IMG/VR virus record: IMGVR_UViG_3300043449_001915
Span: 1-35,475 of that record
DNA length: 35,475 bases
Reading direction: 5' to 3' (one strand)
From: a virus
Positions within the stretch are counted from its first letter, which is position 1. Each line of letters opens with the position of its first letter. This document shows, one piece after another, positions 5,450 through 35,475 of this stretch. The translations under genes were made by a program, and so were the position numbers. The notes beneath the pieces were generated by a model. It made no database searches. It saw only the letters and a list, made by a program, of their open reading frames with translations, and was not told where the DNA came from.

Positions 5450-5905
5450 TTAAACCTTCTTTGGATCATAGGCCAGACGAATTAGGTTCTTTTCGTCTTC
5501 TGGCTGCGCGTTGCTATCGATGTTCGATTTCGAATAATAGTCTGGAAAGCGGCGCGACATAAGGAATTGGATCATCTTGTCGTTTGCTTTTTTTAGGTGT
5601 TCATGGTCGGTGATCGCCTCACCGTCTTTGGTTTTCCTCTTCTGGTGAGCGGCTCCAGTGGCTATCGTCATCGCCAGTTTTTCCCACCAGCGTTGTGATT
5701 CCTCTTTGCCAAGCTCACAGGCATTACGAAACTCTGGGTGTCTTTGCTGCCATTCTAGGAAGGTTTTTCTGGGCACTCCGATCTCTGCACAGCACGCAGC
5801 AATGCTTTCGCCTTTGCTCATAAGTCGCCGAACGAGGTCGCAATACTCTGGCCTGTACTTCTCAGGTCGCCCTATTTTTTTCCTTTCGTTTAACTGATCT
5901 GACAT
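5450..5905 (-). CDS. terS: Terminase small subunit
   Basis: A 151-aa DNA-recognition subunit that would select the packaging site and activate the large subunit. An N-terminal helix-turn-helix is visible around residues 10-55 (RPEKYRPEYCDLVRRLMSKG, then IAACCAEIGVPRKTFLEW), followed by a helical oligomerisation segment and a C-terminal tail. I chose the ATG at 5905, which has AAAGGTCGG upstream, over an in-frame GTG at 5929. It is the first gene of the minus-strand packaging operon and faces the ParB-type gene across a short divergent spacer. Confidence 0.85.
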   Translation of the reverse strand: MSDQLNERKKIGRPEKYRPEYCDLVRRLMSKGESIAACCAEIGVPRKTFLEWQQRHPEFRNACELGKEESQRWWEKLAMTIATGAAHQKRKTKDGEAITDHEHLKKANDKMIQFLMSRRFPDYYSKSNIDSNAQPEDEKNLIRLAYDPKKV

Positions 5906-6031: not shown

Positions 6032-6628
6032 ATGGAACACGAATACGAACTGGTTTCGGTCGAGAGCATTGTGCTTGATCCAGCTAACGCAAGACTCCAC
6101 CCAGAAAAGAACCTTGAAGCGATCAAAGGTTCACTGGCTCGCTTCGGTCAGCAAAAGCCTATTCTTGTCTGTCGCGCCAATCGCGTTGTTATTGCTGGAA
6201 ACGGAACTCTGACAGCGGCGCGTGAACTAGGATGGGCGGATATAAGGGTTAGATGGACGGATCTGTCTGGGCCAGAAGCGACCGCATATGCTCTGGCGGA
6301 TAATCGCACGTCTGAACTTGCTGAATGGGATTTCGCGGTATTGGGTACCCAGCTAAAGTCATTGACTGACTACGGAATCGAGATTGGTGACTTTGGTTTT
6401 GAGGCGAATGATTTCAATTTACCAGAGCCCGACTATGGAACCATGAATTCTGAACCTGATCCCGATTTCGAGGGGATGCGGGACGGAGTGAAGAAAGCCA
6501 TACAGGTTGAGTTCAACCTTGAGGATTACGATGAGGCATTCGCAATCATAAAATTCTGGCGTGAACGCGGTGCCTATGTTGGTGAAATGATAATCTCGCT
6601 CCTGAAATCTGAAAAGGAAAAGCTATGA
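6032..6628 (+). CDS. ParB/sulfiredoxin-fold protein (phage ParB-like)
   Basis: A 198-aa protein with a ParB N-terminal (ParB/Srx) domain in residues about 5-95: the segments FGQQKPILV and VIAGNGTLTAARELGW match the family's G-Q-x-x-PI-V and nucleotide-binding loop, with GNGT in place of the usual GHGR. The C-terminal half lacks the helix-turn-helix of partition ParB proteins, so a plasmid-partition role is unlikely. Free-standing domains of this kind in phages sit beside terminases and DNA methylases or base-modification genes. It overlaps the methyltransferase by four bases (ATGA), so the two are translationally coupled. Confidence 0.85.
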   Translation: MEHEYELVSVESIVLDPANARLHPEKNLEAIKGSLARFGQQKPILVCRANRVVIAGNGTLTAARELGWADIRVRWTDLSGPEATAYALADNRTSELAEWDFAVLGTQLKSLTDYGIEIGDFGFEANDFNLPEPDYGTMNSEPDPDFEGMRDGVKKAIQVEFNLEDYDEAFAIIKFWRERGAYVGEMIISLLKSEKEKL

Positions 6629-7323
6629 AACTACTCCAGGGCATCATCGACGGCGTCAAATTTTACTATAGAGATGGAACATCAGACATCAAAACGTTCA
6701 ATGAGGTCATTGGCAAGAACGTCTACGAAAAACGTGGCAACTCCATTAAGCGCGGGGAAAAATGGTACGATTGTGGCGGAAACGTAGGCGCTTTCACGCT
6801 GCTGGCGATATCAAAAGGAGCTTCGGAAGTCGAGATATATGAACCTGATCCATTCAATTGCGATATGATAGATCGCAATCTGTCTTTGAATGGTTTCAAG
6901 TCTCGAGCGAAACTTCATCAGAAAGCTCTGGTTCATGACGACCGTAAAGAGTCCACGCTTTTCGTAGGAAATAACGGCAACTACTGGCGAAACAGTCTTG
7001 CCAAGAACTGGAACGGAAAAGGCTTAAAGGTCGAGTGCGTCAAATTCAATGATGCTGTCTGGGACAGTTCCGCTTCAATAAAAATGGACATAGAAGGTTT
7101 AGAAATGCCGATAATCGAGCATATGAACAAAGCCTATCAAAAGCTAATTTTCGAATGGTCATTCGACATAGATCCGAATCTTATTCGCTTTTGGAACGTC
7201 CTGGACCGTCTGAAATTGAACTACGACGTTCATGCAACTGAATATCGTGACAAAGGCGTCACAATCTATCCTAAAACCTGGTTTCCACTTTGCACGAATG
7301 TGTTTTGCTATGCAAAAAATTAA
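6625..7323 (+). CDS. FkbM-family SAM-dependent methyltransferase
   Basis: A 232-aa class I methyltransferase. The SAM-binding loop is visible as WYDCGGNVGAFTLLAISKG (residues about 48-66), the acidic end of strand 2 as IYEPDP, and the FkbM signature as SIKMDIEGLEMPIIE (residues about 152-166). Known FkbM enzymes are O-methyltransferases for sugars or antibiotics. No target-recognition domain or cytosine/adenine catalytic motif (PCQ, DPPY) is visible, so this is not an ordinary DNA methylase. It sits between the ParB-like gene and a TET/JBP-type dioxygenase with overlaps at both ends, so a joint role in DNA or other phage modification is inferred. Confidence 0.85.
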   Translation: MKLLQGIIDGVKFYYRDGTSDIKTFNEVIGKNVYEKRGNSIKRGEKWYDCGGNVGAFTLLAISKGASEVEIYEPDPFNCDMIDRNLSLNGFKSRAKLHQKALVHDDRKESTLFVGNNGNYWRNSLAKNWNGKGLKVECVKFNDAVWDSSASIKMDIEGLEMPIIEHMNKAYQKLIFEWSFDIDPNLIRFWNVLDRLKLNYDVHATEYRDKGVTIYPKTWFPLCTNVFCYAKN

Positions 7324-8098
7324 CCTGACCAAGATCCAGCACACAATTACCGTCGGCGATAAGTGCGCTGATATAACGCCCAATGTGACCGAAGACAGCC
7401 TTTTCTATTCAGAGGGAGAGCTGATTGGCTTTTATATAAAAGACCTATCAAAATATTCTGAAAAAGCTGCACATTTCGCAGATATAGCGAACGCCGAATT
7501 ACTCAGCGATAGAGTTCCGAAATCGACGATGAAACGATCTAGCGGATTGACGAATCACGATCATGAGGTTTTGCAGTATTCGACAATCATCGGCGCAGTT
7601 CCTCCAAAGCCGAACATGAGGCGTTCATACCCAACTATGAGCAGCGTTCATAACGTAGAATCCGCTCGTCAATTTGTAAAGGCTATGACTCTTCTCTGCA
7701 GGGAATCAGAGGATCTCATCTGCAGAATCGCTCCCGCCATATTTGAACATCAGGTCAAAATATTCGCAGAGAATGTTCCTAAAAAGTGGCGGTTTGGTCG
7801 TATGTTTACCAGTTCTATTTCAAATTTCAACATAGCTGCTGCCTACCATCGAGATGCTGCTAATATTGTCGGTTGTGTTAATGTGATCATCGCAAAAAAG
7901 CACGCAGCTAGCGGCGGAAATACGACAATTCCAGACTATGGCGCGACAGTGGATAGCGCAGACAATTCGATGCTTGTCTACCCTGCCTGGAGAAATCTAC
8001 ACGCTGTTACACCGATTCATCTGCACACTCGGAAAGGATACCGAAATAGTCTGGTATTTTACCCGCTCAAAGCTTTCGCCACAAATCACCGCGATTAG
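7310..8098 (+). CDS. TET/JBP-type 2-oxoglutarate/Fe(II) dioxygenase
   Basis: A 262-aa protein starting at ATG 7310, 14 bases inside the preceding gene. The C-terminal half carries the double-stranded beta-helix signature: H180-x-D182 in AAAYHRDAANI, a GGNTTIPDYGATVD core (residues 202-215), distal H231 in LHAVTP and R245 in YRNSLVFY. The order and spacing, including the GG-x-x-x-P-x-YG strand and R-x-SLV-x-Y, match the Tet_JBP oxygenases that hydroxylate 5-methylpyrimidines in DNA. The N-terminal 150 residues have no family I recognise. It could also be a more distant 2OG oxygenase acting on protein or sugar. Linkage to ParB-like and methyltransferase genes supports a nucleic acid substrate. 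Confidence 0.75.
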   Translation: MQKINLTKIQHTITVGDKCADITPNVTEDSLFYSEGELIGFYIKDLSKYSEKAAHFADIANAELLSDRVPKSTMKRSSGLTNHDHEVLQYSTIIGAVPPKPNMRRSYPTMSSVHNVESARQFVKAMTLLCRESEDLICRIAPAIFEHQVKIFAENVPKKWRFGRMFTSSISNFNIAAAYHRDAANIVGCVNVIIAKKHAASGGNTTIPDYGATVDSADNSMLVYPAWRNLHAVTPIHLHTRKGYRNSLVFYPLKAFATNHRD

Positions 8099-8591: not shown

Positions 8592-8609
8592 GGCCATGGA
8601 TGGCCTTTT
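8592..8609 (+). terminator. Weak terminator or attenuator before the lipoprotein gene
   Basis: GGCC, a six-base loop, GGCC and then TTTT lie between the stop of the lysine-rich gene and the lipoprotein start. The stem is only four strong pairs, so read-through is likely and it may only reduce expression of the lipoprotein. Confidence 0.3.
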
Positions 8610-8631
8610 CACTATGAAAGGTATAGTCACA

Positions 8632-9006
8632 ATGAAAAAGCTTATTTTCCTGGCCATGCTCATAGCTTGCGGGACAGAGGAAACGACCACCACAACGTAC
8701 ACGACACCGGCTCAACCGATAACAAAGCTGCCGGATATCGAACACTTTACTGAGTTTGGAACTTCCAAGGAATACTGCAAGTCAGGCTCATGTTTTTCTG
8801 AATTCGTAAGCCCGATTGATTGCAAAGTTACTTACGTTGTGCTTCAGATCGTTTACCAGGGAAAACTTATAACCGGCTCTAGGATTGATGTTGAACTGGC
8901 CAAAGGAGAAAAAACTATTGTTGAATATGCTCCGGAATTCGTCAAACAAGAAAAAACTAGCTACAGTGAACAGAGCCGGACAATATTCTTATGCCCTGTG
9001 GATTGA
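8632..9006 (+). CDS. Small phage lipoprotein
   Basis: A 124-aa protein with a short lipoprotein signal peptide, MKKLIFLAMLIACGTEE, where LIAC is a good lipobox and C13 would become the lipidated residue. A Thr-rich linker (about residues 18-30) follows, then a domain with four cysteines (CKSGSC, IDC, LCPVD) that could form disulfides in the periplasm. I chose the ATG at 8632 because the signal peptide begins there; an in-frame ATG at 8596 would place 12 extra residues before it. Phage lipoproteins of this type often act in superinfection exclusion or as outer spanins, but it has no spanin-like proline-rich pattern. It ends just before a strong bidirectional terminator. Confidence 0.6.
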   Translation: MKKLIFLAMLIACGTEETTTTTYTTPAQPITKLPDIEHFTEFGTSKEYCKSGSCFSEFVSPIDCKVTYVVLQIVYQGKLITGSRIDVELAKGEKTIVEYAPEFVKQEKTSYSEQSRTIFLCPVD

Positions 9007-9011
9007 ACGAA

Positions 9012-9056
9012 AAAAAGCTCCTTCGTCTCTGGGCACACACGACGAAGAAGCTTTTT
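9012..9056. terminator. Strong bidirectional terminator
   Basis: A 16-pair stem with one mismatch (9012-9027 with 9041-9056, 13-base loop) is flanked by A-runs on the left and T-runs on the right, so it can end transcripts from both directions: the plus-strand lipoprotein operon and the minus-strand operon that ends with the tRNA-like element at 9068-9136. Confidence 0.85.
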
Positions 9057-9067
9057 CTTTTTTTGGT

Positions 9068-9136
9068 GGCTTGTGACCGGGATTCGAACCCGGAACCCGT
9101 GCGCTCCACTGTACGAATTGACCTTTCCCACAAGCC
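9068..9136 (-). ncRNA. tRNA-like element 1 (T-arm and long acceptor helix, no clear anticodon arm)
   Basis: On the minus strand the 69-base element has a perfect T-arm (CCGGG, TTCGAAT, CCCGG) and ends that pair over nine bases (GGCTTGTGG with TCACAAGCC, one G-U). A small D-arm-like GAA..TTC with GG in the loop is possible. From acceptor to T-arm there are only about 36 bases against 41 in a normal tRNA, and I find no 5-bp stem with a 7-base loop for an anticodon. It resembles element 2 closely, including the upstream bases TATCG and GTTCGCGAA. It lies just upstream of a strong terminator. A degenerate or very unusual tRNA is the alternative. Confidence 0.55.
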
Positions 9137-9163
9137 TTTTCGCGAACAACGATACTTACATAA

Positions 9164-9328
9164 TCATGGGCTTGCCTCAAGGCGAAATTCCTTTATAGCC
9201 TTATCCCAATACTCGTTAAAGCAGTCCAGACTGCAAAAGCTTTCCCGCCGCCTTAAACTTCCAAATAGGTGCCCTTTTTCCTTCTGGCACTTGTAGCATT
9301 TGAGCTTGATCGGCTGAGGTTTTTTCAT
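9164..9328 (-). CDS. Small zinc-finger-like protein
   Basis: A 54-aa protein starting at ATG 9328, four bases after the stop of the gene upstream (9333). It has C-x2-C (CYKC) and C-x3-C (CSLDC) pairs 18 residues apart, with a basic stretch between them, a pattern of small zinc ribbons or treble-clef knuckles. The N-terminus is lysine-rich. There is no good Shine-Dalgarno, so translation probably depends on coupling to the upstream gene. Function unknown; nucleic-acid binding is plausible. Confidence 0.6.
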   Translation of the reverse strand: MKKPQPIKLKCYKCQKEKGHLFGSLRRRESFCSLDCFNEYWDKAIKEFRLEASP

Positions 9329-9332
9329 TTTT

Positions 9333-10112
9333 TTAATCAAGTGTTAGACTCACATCAATACGCTCGCTGTCCTGCATATCAGCCGATACACGGTCGAGAG
9401 CATCGGTGAGGTTTCGGAATACCACGGTAGCAGCGCCGCCGCCGAGGTCATCAATCGTCGTCTTTCCAGCTGCCACGGCTGCGAGCACGCGCAGGATTTC
9501 CTCACCAGTGATCGGCCCATCAATGGATTTTTGCCAGACCGCATTCGCCAGTCCTTCCGGTGAAAGCGGAGTCGGCCCGCCTGCAGCCGCTTCCATATTC
9601 GCAAGGGCTCCCAGCGCTGAAGACGATGAAACTATGACCAGCGTTCCACTCGCCGAAATCGGAATCAGTCCACCGAGTGATGCTGATCCAGTCATCGTCA
9701 TGGATCCCGATGCAATCATGGCCACGGCTGATGAAAGCTGCGCCGAATTCACGGACAGGACCAGTGCGCCCGATGCGACCAGTTCAGCGAGCAGGCTCAT
9801 CGTTGCCGTTTGCACGGTGATTTGCATCGAGCCTGAGCCGTCCATGGGCAGAGCTGCAGTCGCAACTATTATCCCTTGTGTGATCGCTGCCGATGTCTCT
9901 GTGTAACTCGACAAGCTTCCTGGAACTGTCGGCAGGACGAACGAAGACGGGGAAATGTGCCCGTTAGCATACCCACCGAAAATGGACGACAGACCGCCTA
10001 CGAAGCGGTTTCGAAAGCCACCTTTTACCACGTTCCCGTAATCGCCATTGGTAAAGCTGCCACGAAAAACGCCTGGATTTTGGTATATGCTGCGCCCATT
10101 TCTCAAAAGCAT
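9333..10112 (-). CDS. Phage structural protein, hydrophobic repeat-rich
   Basis: A 259-aa protein. I chose the ATG at 10112, which follows the upstream stop at once and has GGGAG before it; a TTG at 10163 would add 17 residues. The middle (about residues 80-180) consists of small-residue, alternating segments rich in A, S, G, V and T, likely beta-strands of a fibrous or surface protein. The C-terminus (LSPEGLANAVWQKSIDG to ATVVFRNLTDALDRV) is a module I know from proteins of phage tail/structural clusters, where it ends with an AGKTT-x-DDLGGGAATV-x-FR pattern. It probably belongs to the virion with the genes upstream. No enzymatic motif. Confidence 0.5.
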   Translation of the reverse strand: MLLRNGRSIYQNPGVFRGSFTNGDYGNVVKGGFRNRFVGGLSSIFGGYANGHISPSSFVLPTVPGSLSSYTETSAAITQGIIVATAALPMDGSGSMQITVQTATMSLLAELVASGALVLSVNSAQLSSAVAMIASGSMTMTGSASLGGLIPISASGTLVIVSSSSALGALANMEAAAGGPTPLSPEGLANAVWQKSIDGPITGEEILRVLAAVAAGKTTIDDLGGGAATVVFRNLTDALDRVSADMQDSERIDVSLTLD

Positions 10113-10113
10113 T

Positions 10114-10302
10114 TTATGCAAACTCCCATTGAAAGCCTTTGCAAGTTTGTTTGGAAAGCCCAATTAAATTGTTGATCTTGGCGTAGATGCCTTTTTCCTG
10201 CCGCTTCTTTCTTCCCTGCTTGGCTTTGCCTAACTTTCGCTCCATCATTCGATAGTAGCGGCGATTGGTTGCATATCTTATATGCCTATAAACATTGAAC
10301 AT
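10114..10302 (-). CDS. Small basic hypothetical protein
   Basis: About 62 aa, very rich in R, K and Y (MFNVYRHIRYATNRRYYRMM, then KAKQGRKKRQEKG). The ATG at 10302 lies one base after the upstream stop (TGAAATG), which suits re-initiation; ATG at 10332 inside the upstream gene is an alternative adding ten residues. The composition suggests binding to nucleic acid or to an acidic partner. I do not recognise the family. It is in the second structural block, so a minor virion component is possible. Confidence 0.5.
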   Translation of the reverse strand: MFNVYRHIRYATNRRYYRMMERKLGKAKQGRKKRQEKGIYAKINNLIGLSKQTCKGFQWEFA

Positions 10303-10303
10303 T

Positions 10304-11185
10304 TCAAGACCAGCCCATTTCAAGCGATCCATAAAAGTTGCTCGATGCACCCGTAGCTGCACCTGTGAAATAAAGCCAAGTTAGACAGGATCCATCCTTA
10401 ATTTCAGGCAATGACGGTATTTGATTTAAAAAGTCACGTTCACTGGCGACCGATACCGTTGTCAGTGGAATCGTGAGCAGAGGTTTTGCCAGACAAAGTG
10501 CAGCCGTTCCAGCGCCTGAGGCAGCTGAGAGCGTGAGGGATTCGACCGATTTAATACCGGTGTCCCCATTAGCAAGCGGCAGGAACGGTCCATAATTGTT
10601 CGCGGCAGTTCCTGAATGCGTTATATGCGGAGTGATCGCAGAGGCCGTACAAGATACCGAGACGGGAAGAGTCCGCCCTGCAGTGCCCGCCGTATTTGTA
10701 TAGGAAATGGCTACGTTATGCGCGGTCGCACCGGAAGTTGTAACGATAACGAGATATGCCCTTAACCCTTCCCCGTTTGTATATCTGAGCGTCGGGGAAC
10801 CAACAAAGTTTTGTGCCGTGTTCGAGTTCATCGAAATGCCAGGAAAATAACCTTGCATGTCAACCAACATAAGCTGCGATGGAACGCCAGTTGCTACAGC
10901 TGTGATCGCAGAGCCGTTCAAAACATGCTTCGTATCAGTCGAAACGTTTCCGCCGTGCCTCATTCCAAAGATTTGTGTTCCATTGCCAGTCGATTCGTCA
11001 CAAGTCACCCAGTTGAGAGCAGTACCTGCCCAGGCATTTGCCACGGGAGTACCTGCCAGCGAGGAAAAGTCATACCAGCGTCCAGCCGTGTATGCTGCAG
11101 CGCCCGTGATTTTGTTCCAATCGTTTCGGAAAAATTTTCCGCCAGTGATCGAGGAAACAAGGTCATCAATAGATGTAAAAGCCAT
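10304..11185 (-). CDS. Putative virion surface/tail protein, paralog A
   Basis: A 293-aa protein starting MAFTSIDDLVSSITGGKFFR. It is predicted mostly beta, rich in T, S, A and G. The segment around residues 165-245 (TAGRTLPVSVSC, then PFLPLANGDTGIKSVESLTL, then CLAKPLLTIPL) matches the neighbouring 280-aa protein (GVSGRTVTANI, PFVPLDNGDTGVRSIQSVTM, AIVKPLATVP), so the two are paralogs. The conserved P-L-x-NGDTG-x-[KR]-S-[VI] motif is the best diagnostic feature. I infer a capsid-decoration, head-fibre or tail-associated protein from context; no enzymatic motif is visible. Confidence 0.6.
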   Translation of the reverse strand: MAFTSIDDLVSSITGGKFFRNDWNKITGAAAYTAGRWYDFSSLAGTPVANAWAGTALNWVTCDESTGNGTQIFGMRHGGNVSTDTKHVLNGSAITAVATGVPSQLMLVDMQGYFPGISMNSNTAQNFVGSPTLRYTNGEGLRAYLVIVTTSGATAHNVAISYTNTAGTAGRTLPVSVSCTASAITPHITHSGTAANNYGPFLPLANGDTGIKSVESLTLSAASGAGTAALCLAKPLLTIPLTTVSVASERDFLNQIPSLPEIKDGSCLTWLYFTGAATGASSNFYGSLEMGWS

Positions 11186-11199
11186 TTCTCTAAGTCCTT

Positions 11200-12042
11200 T
11201 CAGGAGTTGACGAAAAGCATTTCCCCGCGCAAAATAGCCGCTCCGGTGAAGCCACGTTGGATAATTAAGTTAATGCAGGCACCTTCCAGGATTTCTGGTG
11301 GACATTTACCAAACATTGCATAGTTTTTTTCGACAGCTGCCGTTGTTTCATAGGTAGGAACGGTTGCCAAAGGCTTAACGATAGCCGCGCAAACAAAACC
11401 ACCGCCGGCACCACCCATAGTCACAGATTGGATGGATCTTACGCCTGTATCTCCATTGTCAAGAGGTACGAATGGAGTTGCTTGTGCACCTCCACCGCCT
11501 ATTCCCATTCCTGTCGCACAAACACCGATTGCAGCACCGGGGATAATGTTGGCTGTCACTGTTCGCCCGGAAACCCCGTCCTGGTTTGTGTAATTGAGCG
11601 TCATAGGAGCTGTAGCCGCCAGAGGAGATTGGACGATCAAGACCACTCTCCCATCGTTATAACGCGGGAGAGTGATCGGATTATTCATCATTTGTTCAGA
11701 CTGTTCATCGGTATCAATCAGGGAGTAGAACATTAGATAATCGAGAATATAGATGTAATCTGGTGTCTGGGTTTGTTGCAAGAATTGGCAGGAAAGTAGA
11801 TGTTTTGACCGCCCTGAAATAAAATTTCCTGGATATATTCCGAAATTTCCCTGCCCAACTAGCTCCGTTGCTGTCAGTGCCGAACCTGCAAAAGGGTTAT
11901 ATTTTGGAATTCCTGAGGTTTGATTAAGGTCGATAAAAAACCCGTTCGCTCCAACTCCTGGAAGAGTTGGTTTATAAACATACTGCCAATGGATATTTTC
12001 GGCTGCATTTCTACCAATCGCTGCAAAGCTATTGAATCCCAT
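11200..12042 (-). CDS. Putative virion surface/tail protein, paralog B
   Basis: A 280-aa protein that shares the NGDTG core and flanking strands with the 293-aa protein just downstream, which points to a tandem duplication. The N-terminal third (IHWQYVYKPTLPGVGANGFF) also lines up in position with paralog A (KITGAAAYTAGRWYDF), but with low identity. The start overlaps the homing-endonuclease remnant by 14 bases. Two adjacent paralogs with conserved cores and divergent surfaces suit a two-component decoration or fibre complex. Exact location on the virion is unknown. Confidence 0.6.
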   Translation of the reverse strand: MGFNSFAAIGRNAAENIHWQYVYKPTLPGVGANGFFIDLNQTSGIPKYNPFAGSALTATELVGQGNFGIYPGNFISGRSKHLLSCQFLQQTQTPDYIYILDYLMFYSLIDTDEQSEQMMNNPITLPRYNDGRVVLIVQSPLAATAPMTLNYTNQDGVSGRTVTANIIPGAAIGVCATGMGIGGGGAQATPFVPLDNGDTGVRSIQSVTMGGAGGGFVCAAIVKPLATVPTYETTAAVEKNYAMFGKCPPEILEGACINLIIQRGFTGAAILRGEMLFVNS

Positions 12043-12304
12043 AAATAAACACCAAGCCTTTCCAGGTTTCCTTATGACCTGTCAGCACTTCTGCAATTCG
12101 TGCTCTCTTGGTCTTGAAATGTTGAGCAGTCTCTGTCACTGAAGGAAAAATTTCGCCGGTTGTCGGACGAACAACAGGCCTAGAATTCTTAGAGCCATTT
12201 ATTCTAGCCATTTCTAATTCTTCTTTTGAATATTTTCTTTCTTTGGCCGCGATACTTTGTTTTTGTTTTGTTTCATCACTCCTTTTGAGGCCATAAGAAG
12301 GATA
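12029..12304 (-). pseudogene. Homing-endonuclease remnant (NUMOD3/NUMOD1-like DNA-binding modules)
   Basis: Directly after the TAA of the 135-aa gene, and in the same reading frame, about 91 sense codons follow. They begin YPSYGLKRSDETKQKQSIAA, which fits a NUMOD3 motif (R/H-S-x-ETK-x-K), and continue to RPVVRPTTGEIFPSVTETAQ and IAEVLTGHKETWKGLVFIYG, which fits NUMOD1. These modules form the DNA-binding tail of GIY-YIG and HNH homing endonucleases. No catalytic domain and no start codon precede them; the first in-frame ATG is 12211, which would give a 60-aa NUMOD1-only protein. I read this as the tail left from a lost mobile endonuclease, possibly still making the short protein. Confidence 0.6.
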
Positions 12305-12712
12305 TTAGTCGAGTTGGAAACTCAGAGCACCCGGTGCAAACTGAGGCTGGACGCCAGTTGAGACCGTGATACTGGAAGAAAGTGCTGCGCGTACAATAAT
12401 TGTGCCCGCACCTGAAGCTGTATCGACGATCGAAGCATAGGTGATCACATTGGATCCAGATGTGCAGGTTGCAAACTGTTCAAGGTTGGCATTCGAAAGG
12501 AGGTTTCCTACGATAGAAAAATCCGTCGCCCTGGTAAGAACCGCGCGTGCATAATCGCCGTAAGTCGCCTCACTCGTGACCGCTGTTCCAGCTTCGCCTG
12601 GATCCGCCGTATGTAGAGCTATCCAAAGGTTGGTGTTTGCATTCCAAGGAAGTGCAGTACCGACAAAAATCTGATTTAGAACTGACGTTTCAGCTGAATT
12701 CGAAAAACTCAT
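12305..12712 (-). CDS. Phage tail fibre-type structural protein
   Basis: A 135-aa protein of a kind common in phage tail clusters: MSFSNSAETSVLNQIFVGTA, then LWIALHTADPGEAGTAV, then YGDYARAVLT. The ALHTADP and YARA segments are typical of the small structural proteins annotated as tail fibre or appendage proteins. The rest is beta-rich with T, S and A. It follows the collagen-like gene and is followed in frame, after its stop, by the NUMOD remnant. Virion location is inferred. Confidence 0.65.
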   Translation of the reverse strand: MSFSNSAETSVLNQIFVGTALPWNANTNLWIALHTADPGEAGTAVTSEATYGDYARAVLTRATDFSIVGNLLSNANLEQFATCTSGSNVITYASIVDTASGAGTIIVRAALSSSITVSTGVQPQFAPGALSFQLD

Positions 12713-12741
12713 GGATGCCCTCTAATGATTGAAAATTATAT

Positions 12742-13392
12742 TTAGCTCCACCCGCCCGGAAAATAGCTGTTTCCTCCACCTTCGCCAGCTGGACCTTGCG
12801 GACCTTCCGGCCCTTGGGGACCAGTCGCACCAATTGGACCTTGAGGACCAGTCGGTCCTTGAATGCCTTGCGGTCCCTGCACACCTTGCGTTCCTGGGTT
12901 TCCATCTGCGCCTTGCGGACCGATCGGACCTTGCGGTCCTTGTGTTCCGGTTTGGCCTTGTGGTCCTGGTTCACCTTTGTCGCCTTTTGGACCGGTAGCA
13001 CCTGCAGGACCCTGGGGACCTGTGGCGCCGGTCGGGCCAGCTGCACCTTGAGGACCGGCTGGACCAGTATCGCCCTGGGGACCAGTCGCACCGGTAGCAC
13101 CAGTGGGACCTGCAGGACCCTGGGGACCGGTTGGACCCGGGTCACCTTGCGGACCTTCGGGACCGACAGGACCTCCACTCGGACCGATTGGACCTTCAGG
13201 ACCTTCGGGACCTATCGGACCTTGTGGGCCTGGGATCCCAGGTTCTTTTAATTGTACAACGGTCGGATTGATCCCGATCGTTCTGATTTCAATTTTTGCC
13301 GTGCCAGCAATCGGTGAAGCTTTAATGATGGTGATTTCTGCGATTGATTCAACGCCACCAGTGATATCACGCTTTGTGATCGTGATATTCAT
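12742..13392 (-). CDS. Collagen-like repeat tail protein
   Basis: A 216-aa protein. Residues 1-50 form a small beta-rich head ([20 protein letters not shown]) and residues about 53-205 are nearly perfect G-x-y triplets ([10 protein letters not shown] and variants such as GATGPQGDT), ending in [14 protein letters not shown]. Such repeats form a trimeric collagen-like helix in phage fibres. It overlaps the upstream fibre-adaptor gene by four bases, so the two are co-translated. The repeats make this stretch prone to recombination and length variation. No hydroxyproline is expected in bacteria, so stability would come from charged triplets. Confidence 0.88.
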
Positions 13393-13730
13393 CTCGTCAC
13401 CTCGGGAGTAACTTCGAAGCGACCTTCGAGTAGACGCTGTACTTCCCCTGTCCCATTATCAAGTTCCAAATCGTAATAGTAATTCCATGCGGGGATTGCT
13501 GTTGTTTGCTCAGCAGTTAAAAGCAAGGTTACAGTATCAGATGCAATAGTTGCCGAAACCGTTGCCGTGATCACGGGAGCGGCTGGCGCTGTACGGATCT
13601 GCATCCTTGCCGTGTAACCGTCAATCGGGATAATGACGTTATTCTCATCCCGAAGCACTATTTCCCGCTCGAAAGTGCTTCCCTGCTTACAGTCCTCATT
13701 ATTTTGCCGGGTAAAGTTAAAGACTGCCAT
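13389..13730 (-). CDS. Fibre/baseplate adaptor domain protein
   Basis: A 113-aa beta-rich protein starting [20 protein letters not shown]. The pattern of [20 protein letters not shown], a Y-x-A-x-MQIR strand and a final [25 protein letters not shown] matches small phage domains that adopt a BppU-N-like or immunoglobulin-like fold and anchor fibres. It is the first gene of the second structural block, about 45 bases downstream of a good promoter, and is coupled to the collagen-like gene by a four-base overlap. I infer that it attaches the collagen-like fibre to the virion. Confidence 0.65.
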
Positions 13731-13856: not shown

Positions 13857-13932
13857 AAATCCCACCGTTGGGACTCGAACCCAATCTAGCTAAGGGTACC
13901 CTTTCGCTAGCCGTCCACACACAGCAGGATTT
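13857..13932 (-). ncRNA. tRNA-like element 3
   Basis: A 76-base element on the minus strand, eight bases downstream of element 2. It has a perfect T-arm (TTGGG, TTCGAGT, CCCAA) and ends that pair over 11 bases with G-U pairs (AAATCCTGCTG with CGGTGGGATTT). Inside it, CTAGC and GCTAG enclose the palindrome AAGGGTACCCTT, which does not make a normal seven-base anticodon loop. Five T follow the 3' end, so the acceptor helix plus T-run could also end the transcript. It may be a degenerate tRNA; I see no valid anticodon. Confidence 0.5.
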
Positions 13933-13940
13933 AGTCTTTC

Positions 13941-14008
13941 AGCTTGTGACCGGGATTCGAACCCGGAACCCGCGCGCTCCGCTACCGGGTTGACCATTCC
14001 CACAAGCT
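13941..14008 (-). ncRNA. tRNA-like element 2
   Basis: A 68-base minus-strand element with a T-arm identical to element 1 and a nine-base end helix (AGCTTGTGG with TCACAAGCT, one G-U). A D-arm GGG..CCC with GG in its loop is clear. The region where an anticodon arm should be (GTAGCGGAGCGCGCGGG) forms at most two or three of five pairs. It shares the block GGAGCGC and the upstream bases TATCG and GTTCGCGAA with element 1, and a possible promoter (TTGAAA, 17 bases, CAAATA) lies just upstream. Elements 2 and 3 would share one transcript. Confidence 0.55.
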
Positions 14009-14103
14009 CTTCGCGAACCCGATATTTGCACAATTGAGAGATCATTTTCAAGGTTATATTAGACGCAGCGGTTTGCTGGAGTTACCAAAAGGCGGCGCTA
14101 GCG

Positions 14104-14817
14104 TCAGAGGATGCTGGAAGCTGCACGAATTCCGGAAATCGTCCAGCCCTCGTTAGTACCGCCTGATGAACTGCATCCACCGTTGGTATGTACGCCAATC
14201 AGCTGACCGCTTTTATTGAGAATGCCTGACCCTGAGCTTCCACCCAGCGTATCGAGACCTGCATAATAAATACGTGATCCGCTGGCGCTGCCGGAAAGCG
14301 TGCCGAAGGCCACTACTTTGAGTTGAGCTTTCGGATGCTGAATAATGGTCAGGCTGCTCGTCGCCGAAGTACCGAGCGGAGTTGGAGTCACGCCAGGGTT
14401 GGCATTCAATTGAATAAGAGCATAATCCGGTGAGCTTTTGGATTCAATGAAAACGCCTTTCACAGTCACAATAGGACCATCGGCATTGGCTTCGTAATTG
14501 AATTGCACGGATGCGCTCTGCCCTTTTTTTCCGCAATGGCCTGCGGTCAGGAACAGATTTCTAGCACTGCCGATGGATCCGATATATGTTCCAGAACAGC
14601 TTCGATTTAAGCGACCGACAGCCTCTTCACGGGCATGTACAAAAGATACTGGTCCGCGATATTTATTGATTGGTACGAAGTCCTCGGTCTTCCCACAGAT
14701 GGAAATGACTTCGCCAATTTCCATTTCACTTGTTTCCACAGTGCCATCACCACAGCCTGACCCAACTGTCAAACCCATCAAAACCAGAGCCAAATAAAAA
14801 CTTTTCGCTTTTTGCAC
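14104..14817 (-). CDS. Secreted trypsin-like serine protease
   Basis: A 237-aa S1-type protease. It starts at GTG 14817 with GGAGG seven bases upstream. Residues 1-22 form a signal peptide (MQKAKSFYLALVLMGLTVGS then GC); C22 could be lipidated but its -3 residue is Gly, so the lipobox is weak. The catalytic triad is visible: H94 in LTAGHC, D131 in DYALIQL and S195 in GGSSGSG. Two or three disulfides are likely. Such a protein would act in the periplasm, at the cell surface or outside, so it is not a head maturation protease. It may help lysis, alter the host surface or exclude other phages. It is close to bacterial secreted proteases and may come from a host. Confidence 0.85.
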   Translation of the reverse strand: MQKAKSFYLALVLMGLTVGSGCGDGTVETSEMEIGEVISICGKTEDFVPINKYRGPVSFVHAREEAVGRLNRSCSGTYIGSIGSARNLFLTAGHCGKKGQSASVQFNYEANADGPIVTVKGVFIESKSSPDYALIQLNANPGVTPTPLGTSATSSLTIIQHPKAQLKVVAFGTLSGSASGSRIYYAGLDTLGGSSGSGILNKSGQLIGVHTNGGCSSSGGTNEGWTISGIRAASSIL

Positions 14818-14895
14818 CCGCGTCCTCCACTATGGTTGGCTGCCGTTTACCTCTTTCCTGCCTATATGGCTTAGGTTATATCACGAATTGACAAA

Positions 14896-15318
14896 TTATT
14901 TGTCCGAAATATCTGGGTTACTACTCGACGCACCAGCCGCTGCGCCAGTACCGGTTCCGAAAGATGCTTCCACGCGAACCTTAGTAGATCCATCAGCTTT
15001 TTTTTCGTAATCTACCACAATGCGACCTCCTACCCCGATAGACTTGGCAGCCTTGCCGACGATATCGCTCACCGCATCTGCAATTCCACCGACCTGACTT
15101 GGATCAGCATAGGCTGCTGGTCCATTTCCTGCCTTACGCGGAATGTCGGTCTGGAAAAATGTTTCGCAATTCGATTCGATACAAACTTCGAATTCTGAAA
15201 TATTCGGATCTTTTTCCATAACGGCGCTGCCAATTTTCTCAAAAATCATTCTGGGCGTGGGATTTGCGAACGCCATTGACGGCATTCCCAGCAATAGAAC
15301 AGCGAAAATGTTTTTCAT
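14896..15318 (-). CDS. Exported hypothetical protein
   Basis: A 140-aa protein with a clear signal peptide, MKNIFAVLLLGMPSMAFANP, cut probably after AFA. The mature part has two cysteines close together (VCIESNC), an amphipathic segment (VGGIADAVSDIVGKAAKSIG), a basic strand VVDYEKKADGSTKVRVEASF and a Gly/Ala/Ser-rich end. I chose ATG 15318 because GGAGAAAG precedes it and the signal begins there; an upstream ATG at 15357 is in frame. Family not recognised. It lies between a membrane protein and the secreted protease, so these may form an envelope-directed group. Confidence 0.6.
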   Translation of the reverse strand: MKNIFAVLLLGMPSMAFANPTPRMIFEKIGSAVMEKDPNISEFEVCIESNCETFFQTDIPRKAGNGPAAYADPSQVGGIADAVSDIVGKAAKSIGVGGRIVVDYEKKADGSTKVRVEASFGTGTGAAAGASSSNPDISDK

Positions 15319-18896: not shown

Positions 18897-18960
18897 ACGC
18901 CAAATTGTCGCACTTATGAGAGTGGCACACGAAACTCTCATAAGTGCAACAATTTGGCGT
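18897..18960. repeat. 27-bp inverted repeat with 10-base spacer
   Basis: The left arm 18897-18923 (starting ACGCCAAATTGT) is repeated inverted at 18934-18960 with a single mismatch (18909 against 18948). The spacer GGCACACGAA is not palindromic and no T-run follows, so it is neither a typical terminator nor a typical protelomerase site. It could extrude as a cruciform, be a resolution or nicking site, or bind a dimeric protein, perhaps the product of the gene starting at 19085. Confidence 0.9.
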
Positions 18961-34470: not shown

Positions 34471-34684
34471 TAGCCGGTGGTGCTGACTTTTTTTCTTTTG
34501 CCGTTTTTTCCTTTGCTGTCACCTGCAGGATAGCAAAAGGAAAACCATTCGGTTTCAATCCGATTTCCACAATACGCGCAGGCACGCGTACCTGGGTTAT
34601 CATGCGTTCTTTTAGGTTATCAAAGCTGCGCCCGTCGATCATGATAAGGTTGGAAAAACCGTTAATATCTTCGATTGGATCCAT
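34445..34684 (-). CDS. Small protein following the major capsid gene
   Basis: A 79-aa protein (MDPIEDINGFSNLIMIDGRS, then VPARIVEIGLKPNGFPFAIL) with a lysine-rich end (TAKEKTAKEKKSAPPANDSS). It is the first gene after the capsid terminator and could be a head decoration or completion protein; similar-sized proteins with a basic flexible tail occur there. It overlaps the next gene's outer start by 26 bases. The first 14 codons are repeated at the left end of the window. Confidence 0.55.
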   Translation of the reverse strand: MDPIEDINGFSNLIMIDGRSFDNLKERMITQVRVPARIVEIGLKPNGFPFAILQVTAKEKTAKEKKSAPPANDSSIIQE

Positions 34685-34698
34685 ATGAGGCCTTTTGG

Positions 34699-34735
34699 AA
34701 AAAGGGGACGGTCACGGCTTAATGTGAACGCCCCC
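34699..34735 (-). terminator. Rho-independent terminator after major capsid gene, right copy
   Basis: Same stem and T-run as at 58-94, with no substitution inside the hairpin. The stem region is conserved between the two variants while bases around it differ. Confidence 0.6.
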
Positions 34736-34781
34736 CGGAGTTCTAAGATAAGGTAAAAAAAGTAACCGTTTTTGGCCCGAA

Positions 34782-35475
34782 TTAAGCGCCAGTTTGAACT
34801 TTGATATGACGCGCAGCGCCCTGGATACCGATTTTCGCACCAATTACCCAGTCAACTGACATGACGAAAGCAAACTCGTTTTGGGAATGCTTGTCGGATA
34901 TTTTAAAACGTGGTTCGTATTGGCTGACCATATAGAGATAATCAGGATGGAAGAATAGTCCACCAGCCGTTGCACCAGCTGTCTGAGTGTTGTCTTCGAA
35001 AATGCTAAAGCCATAGCGTTTAAGGCCGATCTGCCCACTGATCACGGGAGCATCACCGCCCACAAAGTCAGCGCTTGTAAAGGTCGTATCGACCAAAAGA
35101 TCCGAGTAATACTGTGGTGCGAGCAGGCCATACCAAGGCTTGTTATAACTCCACTTTGCAATTGCAGCATTTTCACGCGCTAGGGCAACGGTAGCCGCTG
35201 TCATCGTGGCAATCGACGGAATCGTAGTAGTAGGTGCAGAAAGCGAATAGAGATAGGTATTCAGCTGATTGCTGATAGCTTGCACCATGGCTTGACGAAC
35301 CTCAGTTGCTCTTGACCCTACAGGGTCAATCATCGATTGAATAGCAACAAGGTCATGGAAGTCATAAGATGCGACGAGACGTTGATCCGCAGTGATCGTC
35401 ACGCTGGAGAGAGACATTGTCTCTGGCGTGAATGTCCGACCAACGCCAGCACCGTCAATTGTCAAACGTTGACCA
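34782..35475 (-). CDS. Major capsid protein, partial second copy
   Basis: The C-terminal 230 codons or so of the capsid gene, cut by the right edge. The protein is identical to residues from about 60 on of the left copy except for Gly in place of Ala in SADFVGGDAP. The gene is open to the edge and has the normal stop at 34782. It is the same gene seen twice because of the end overlap. Confidence 0.88.
   Translation of the reverse strand, partial: GQRLTIDGAGVGRTFTPETMSLSSVTITADQRLVASYDFHDLVAIQSMIDPVGSRATEVRQAMVQAISNQLNTYLYSLSAPTTTIPSIATMTAATVALARENAAIAKWSYNKPWYGLLAPQYYSDLLVDTTFTSADFVGGDAPVISGQIGLKRYGFSIFEDNTQTAGATAGGLFFHPDYLYMVSQYEPRFKISDKHSQNEFAFVMSVDWVIGAKIGIQGAARHIKVQTGA

Follow-up and report, generated by a model that had tools for sequence, protein, structure and literature searches.

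True tRNAs are commonly carried by phages; to our knowledge, there are hardly any descriptions of phage RNAs that have dropped the decoding half of a tRNA and retained just the other half, which processing and modification enzymes recognise. The tRNA-like domain of tmRNA contains an acceptor and a T-arm, a stemless D-loop and a helix replacing the anticodon arm, and the truncated or armless tRNAs of mitochondria retain the anticodon but lack a D- or T-arm. The mascRNA-menRNA family (RF01684) comprises processing products of eukaryotic lncRNAs. YrlA RNA, which does not decode, contains a tRNA-like domain with D- and T-arm features and a long closing stem (PMC8394870). The nearest known design to the elements described here is SpF41 (Rfam RF02435; pneumococcal F41/srn277), an RNA of ~100 nt, whose expression as F41 has been seen by Northern blot (PMC3395615) and which occurs in few strains (PMC12323649). 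Pull-down with SpF41 gave RNase Z and Cbf1, and because csRNAs gave both proteins too, this recovery is not specific to the T-arm (PMC7196914).

The DNA analysed here is the whole 35,475-nt IMG/VR record IMGVR_UViG_3300043449_001915 (hereafter the window), which belongs to an uncultured, siphophage-like virus. On its minus strand two tRNA-like elements without an anticodon arm, A2 (13941..14008) and B (13857..13932), lie in tandem with a spacer of 8 bases (13933-13940) and are unrelated to each other in sequence. A2 is built in order from a 9-pair acceptor helix (AGCTTGTGG/TCACAAGCT), the connector GAAUGGUC, a hairpin AACCCG/CGGGUU bearing a 3-pair GCG-GAG-CGC tip, and the T-arm CCGGG-TTCGAAT-CCCGG (13950..13966, minus strand), with no gap between the acceptor helix and the T-arm. 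In B, an 11-pair acceptor helix with several G-U pairs (AAATCCTGCTG/CGGTGGGATTT) is combined with the connector TGTGTGGACGG (UGUGUGGACGG in the RNA), a hairpin CTAGC/GCTAG (CUAGC/GCUAG in the RNA) containing a short inner helix, and the T-arm TTGGG-TTCGAGT-CCCAA (13868..13884, minus strand), which the acceptor helix abuts directly; the final strand of B reaches TTTTT. Like canonical tRNAs, both A and B join a T-arm with a TTCRA loop directly to the acceptor. The five-pair, seven-base anticodon arm with U33 is absent from both, and in place of a 7-pair acceptor with the 12-pair acceptor/T stack of a tRNA they contain 9-11 acceptor pairs and stacks of 14-16 pairs. The D-loop residues G18-G19 of a tRNA contact its T-loop, and a GG is found at this place within the connectors of both A and B.

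A search of the whole record located a paralogue of A2, designated A1, on the minus strand at 9068..9136, which matches A2 at 84% over the shared block and whose acceptor helix is directly followed by ACCA (9064-9067). Terminase searches led to a clade of related virus contigs, among which three (L003, L005 and L007) carry family A beside the window, amounting to five copies within one phage clade, and one (L007) also carries family B, of which there are thus two copies in all. The layout of family A consists of a leader GTTCGCGAA(G/A), the 5' acceptor strand, a connector GAA(U/A)GGUC, a hairpin AAYNCG/CGGGUU with the small GCG-GAG-CGC tip, the T-arm and the 3' acceptor strand. Its 3' half (GGAGCGCRCGGGTTCCGGGTTCGAATCCCGG) has one variable base across all five copies, whereas the DNA flanking the copies is ~70-90% identical. 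Scores of the copies from the four contigs range from 79 to 109 bits with an A model that had itself been constructed from the five copies. A protein-coding nature was rejected on account of interrupted frames and indels of 1-3 bases between copies, and the alanine identity pair G3-U70, present in L003 and L005, was dropped as it is absent from A1, A2 and L007.

All five A copies are preceded, at constant spacing before the leader, by a CTTG -35-like box and an A+T-rich -10-like region. For A2 this promoter-like stretch (TTGAAA ... TGC-AAATAT, with a weak -10 match) would lie at 14022..14051 on the minus strand, followed by the conserved leader GTTCGCGAAG (14009..14018), and for A1 alignment places it at 9152..9180 (minus strand; TTGAGG ... 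TGT-AAGTAT), with the conserved leader GTTCGCGAAA at 9138..9147. The leader contains the palindrome TTCGCGAA, whose only two exact occurrences in the window precede A1 and A2. These stretches are weak sigma-70 matches and were not listed by a promoter consensus scan. A1 keeps the CTTG box, the -10-like region and the leader spacing, even though beyond this region its upstream DNA has no relation to that of A2. An intrinsic-terminator hairpin follows A1 (9010..9052, minus strand), as terminators also follow the A copy of L005 and the B copy of L007, and convergent genes lie after A1 and the L005 copy. The 13-base terminator loop GTGTGTGCCCAGA is identical in the window (9028-9040), in L005 (5553-5565) and in L007 (1003-1015), with different stems, and the connector of B also starts with (G)TGTGTGG like this loop.

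A preliminary description of the tandem pair, made from the sequence alone, had reported perfect T-arms with 9- and 11-pair helices, eight bases between the elements and no anticodon arm that could be drawn; its anatomy, coordinates and strand proved exact to the base, the spacing is as given and the arm is indeed lacking in A2 and B, while its 'element 1' is presumably A1. A common transcript of A2 and B with its end in the T-run, which it had also proposed, is plausible for this pair, where B meets TTTTT, but is not general, as A1 and the L005 copy have their own terminator without B.

ARAGORN at default settings found no tRNA and no tmRNA. When forced to a 70% threshold, it drew two tRNAs, both without U33: Tyr(GTA) on B, in which the anticodon stem is broken and whose GTA triplet is not kept in the L007 relative, and Arg(GCG) on A2, in which the acceptor contains mismatches. 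At 50% the only tmRNA calls were poor, permuted and without an identified tag. For tRNAs of split, permuted, intron-bearing or mitochondrial type, the forced calls were likewise poor and overlapped one another, and these types were rejected. An Rfam scan gave no match at the gathering score for A or B. The combination of a T-arm with a directly joined acceptor of at least 9 pairs occurs three times in the window, as against a mean of 0.003 in 300 dinucleotide shuffles of the whole window.

Comparison of the copies provided evidence for conservation of the fold. RNAalifold recovered the acceptor, the hairpin and the T-arm of family A without being supplied with them, and 91.7% of cells in the A structure are paired, compared with 21-41% in slid controls, with three pairs, all in helix 1, changed on both sides. 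For B, comparison of the window with L007 revealed 97.7% of cells paired versus 34-55% in slid controls and double changes in five of the 22 pairs, the T-stem in L007 being TCAGG/CCTGG due to two double changes and one wobble change, and these counts therefore support the acceptor, hairpin and T-stem of B. The T-stem of A is invariant, so covariation is no test of it, and its support comes from the T-loop signature and the direct junction. The inner hairpin of A varies on one side only, an alternative hairpin YGGAGC/GUUCCG also fits all five A copies and is not separated from it by covariation, and the A helix of L007 contains mismatches.

Family A was not found in more distant relatives with whole records searched, nor in the 25.9 kb searched of cyanophage MED4-117, despite common terminase and TET genes. 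Among 50,697 phage and 72,556 plasmid records no close DNA relatives were retrieved, the matches being T-arms of ordinary tRNAs and chance matches, and a terminase search of genome contigs yielded no prophage or host. One match to a relaxed viral pattern and two to a terminator-loop pattern look like chance and lie in protein-coding DNA, the latter two as judged by inspection of the sequence.

The main caution comes from folding energies, since RNAfold minimum free energy structures lack the T-arm and the tRNA-like fold is 1-10 kcal/mol less stable by nearest-neighbour energies; the predicted fold is thus founded on the sequence signature and covariation, not on energy. When the A model was applied to 398 genomes, the single match at E <= 1e-4, also the best match, was a genuine tRNA-Lys, in whose alignment the tip of A lands on a cut-down anticodon stem, which fits a putative descent of family A from a tRNA. 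Taken as a whole, we consider it very probable that A1, A2 and B are structured, anticodon-less RNA genes. A normal tRNA and random decay in related phages, the two outcomes that the preliminary description had named as contrary to its view, emerged neither from ARAGORN and the Rfam covariance models nor from the relatives, whose helices have been preserved through compensatory changes. Its suggestion of tRNA mimics stands in so far as the elements are genes for tRNA-like RNAs that lack an anticodon arm and persist in relatives, but the 14-16 bp stacks speak against ordinary handling by RNase P, CCA-adding enzyme or EF-Tu.

In the window, the two A copies flank a tail-fibre cassette (9333-13730). 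L005 has a single A copy (5459-5530), whose left flank matches that of A2 (13943-14899) and whose right flank matches that of A1 (8592-9164), and it resembles a single-copy ('empty') arrangement of the cassette region; such flanks would be the expected outcome had the region been shaped by recombination between A units. A gene for a trypsin-like serine peptidase (14104-14817, minus strand) lies directly upstream of A2, and its homologues precede A in L003 and L005. On the plus strand at 6032-8098, a ParB/DNA-methylase-like gene, an FkbM-type methyltransferase gene and a TET/JBP-type oxygenase gene, the latter carrying the PHROG label 'queuine tRNA-ribosyltransferase', are clustered, which suggests DNA base hypermodification; homologues of the TET gene and of the terminase gene adjoin each other in cyanophage MED4-117. 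The record ends in an 834-base repeat (1-834 and 34642-35475; 98.4% identity, 13 mismatches, no gaps), which reflects either terminal redundancy or strain variation in a circular assembly, and a near-perfect 27-base inverted repeat with a 10-base spacer is present at 18897-18960.

Family A could be a tRNA-derived att or recombination site, or a module boundary by which the tail-fibre cassette is moved, as the position of the two copies around the cassette, the composite flanks of L005 and the end of homology in L003 at the 3' end of A would have it. We regard this as quite unlikely, as compensatory changes would be needless in a pure DNA site and as in L007 the A-B pair lies upstream of the cassette, which no A copy follows. 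Moreover, an att site of this kind would be expected to match a host tRNA gene exactly in its 3' half and to have an integrase nearby. No integrase was seen in the set of proteins searched, and the tRNA genes of 84,980 species genomes, which need not include the host, do not contain the A 3' half, the three genome matches to it looking on reading like chance within protein-coding DNA. That the elements are processing or termination signals of the tail-fibre transcript, comparable to tRNA punctuation or a leader, would agree with the location of A2-B, which shares its strand with the fibre genes and lies upstream of them, and with the T-run ending B. Such a role seems very unlikely, given that L005 and L003 have no fibre-cassette homologue after A, that a terminator and then a convergent gene come after A1 and the L005 copy, and that in L007 B lies ~0.9 kb away from the fibre cassette.

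Decaying tRNA genes, or a functionless tRNA fragment of att type, are disfavoured and highly improbable. Integration commonly gives rise to tRNA fragments (PMC9897764), and A does resemble, in the tRNA-Lys alignment, a tRNA with a cut-down anticodon arm, yet the two acceptor strands are both retained, with covariation between them, only one position of the 31-base block differs among the copies, and B has five double changes. The compensatory changes, together with the promoter-like region, the conserved leader and the terminator facing a convergent gene, thus argue for stand-alone noncoding RNA genes rather than decayed tRNAs or leaders. An RNA of this kind might serve as a decoy, filling the tRNA-binding site of a phage-defence nuclease or of a tRNA-targeting toxin. 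Its location in a variable, moron-like island, the duplicated and diversified copies and the competitive-inhibitor role proposed for the tRNA-like YrlA RNA (PMC7790460) are in line with such a function. Bait for an anticodon nuclease would, however, usually be expected to show an anticodon loop, which A and B do not have, and PADLOC on the neighbouring proteins gave only a DNA methyltransferase-like match, so that the decoy, too, is an unlikely explanation.

The account we prefer, although as a whole it falls somewhat short of probable, is that A1, A2 and B are small noncoding RNA genes acting in trans, through the T-arm and acceptor end, on a host factor that recognises the elbow of tRNAs. 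The RNAs would be ~70-130 nt long, and each would copy the acceptor/T-arm half of a tRNA and probably its elbow, formed by the T-loop and the connector. Since the anticodon arm is replaced by a short hairpin without a seven-base loop, decoding is not possible. Family A at least may constitute an independent moron-like unit composed of the promoter-like region, conserved leader, RNA and terminator. The T-arm/acceptor rod and the T-loop/connector elbow would then be recognised by a host elbow-reading protein, for which RNase Z, RNase P, TruB/TrmA or a degradosome-linked nuclease are candidates, and either the RNA would be stabilised and matured or the protein would be tied up during infection, to the presumed benefit of the phage. 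The 14-16 bp acceptor/T stacks, as compared with 12 in tRNA, make ordinary charging or RNase P maturation unlikely, and being too long for canonical tRNA enzymes they argue against this preferred account.

Comparison with SpF41 reveals the same architecture as in family A: a promoter, a long acceptor helix (7+2 pairs in SpF41) that co-varies, a GG-containing connector, a short hairpin instead of the anticodon arm and without an anticodon loop, a perfect T-arm and an intrinsic terminator. It differs in phage group, location and sequence, and lacks the A leader GTTCGCGAA and the A terminator loop. With the SpF41 model, A1 and the L005 copy score 22.1 and 22.8 bits, below the gathering cut-off of 52 bits, sub-threshold matches also occur in 10 of 14 control genomes, and SpF41 in turn scores 11-15.5 bits with the A model; as scores in both directions are no better than those of ordinary tRNAs, A and SpF41 share an architecture and not family membership. 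A search with an SpF41 consensus fragment retrieved 15 records, all from Streptococcus phages or satellite phages, and SpF41 scores 95-117 bits in the seven records checked (MK448621, JX879087, MK448671, MK448354, MK448708, MK448831 and MK448488), lying directly upstream of the terminase genes in the four phages and between small genes in the three satellites. SpF41 is thus common to phages and satellites, beside packaging genes in the former.

Because their shape is kept via matched mutations and the unrelated SpF41 has the same design, A and B look like real tRNA-mimicking RNAs. Three sequence-unrelated families in different phages and satellites suggest selection for shape, and it is conceivable, if doubtful, that anticodon-less tRNA mimics form a general class of RNAs in phages and satellites that has gone largely unrecognised, in which A, B and SpF41 would have reached one plan and act in trans on an elbow-reading enzyme or a defence nuclease. 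Such RNAs are easily overlooked, A and B being missed by ARAGORN and SpF41 having no annotated feature over it in the public records of streptococcal phages; its presence in cultivable streptococcal phages and satellites makes a role during infection directly testable.

The other known designs are less close. No YrlA match to A or B was listed by Rfam at E <= 1, even sub-threshold, and the window proteins scanned with Pfam contain no Ro60/Rsr (TROVE) domain; A and B are like YrlA in their non-decoding tRNA-like domain with a long closing stem, but are without its added Ro-binding stem. B resembles mascRNA-menRNA in its acceptor, T-arm and reduced middle, scoring 25.2 bits, below the cut-off of 42.5, but has its own connector and hairpin. 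With tmRNA, for which the Rfam match covers the T-arm only (12.7 bits), A and B share the acceptor, the T-arm, a stemless D-loop region and a helix instead of the anticodon arm, but contain neither a tag frame nor pseudoknots. Finally, A and B and the truncated tRNAs of mitochondria both miss whole arms, but what A and B have given up is the anticodon.
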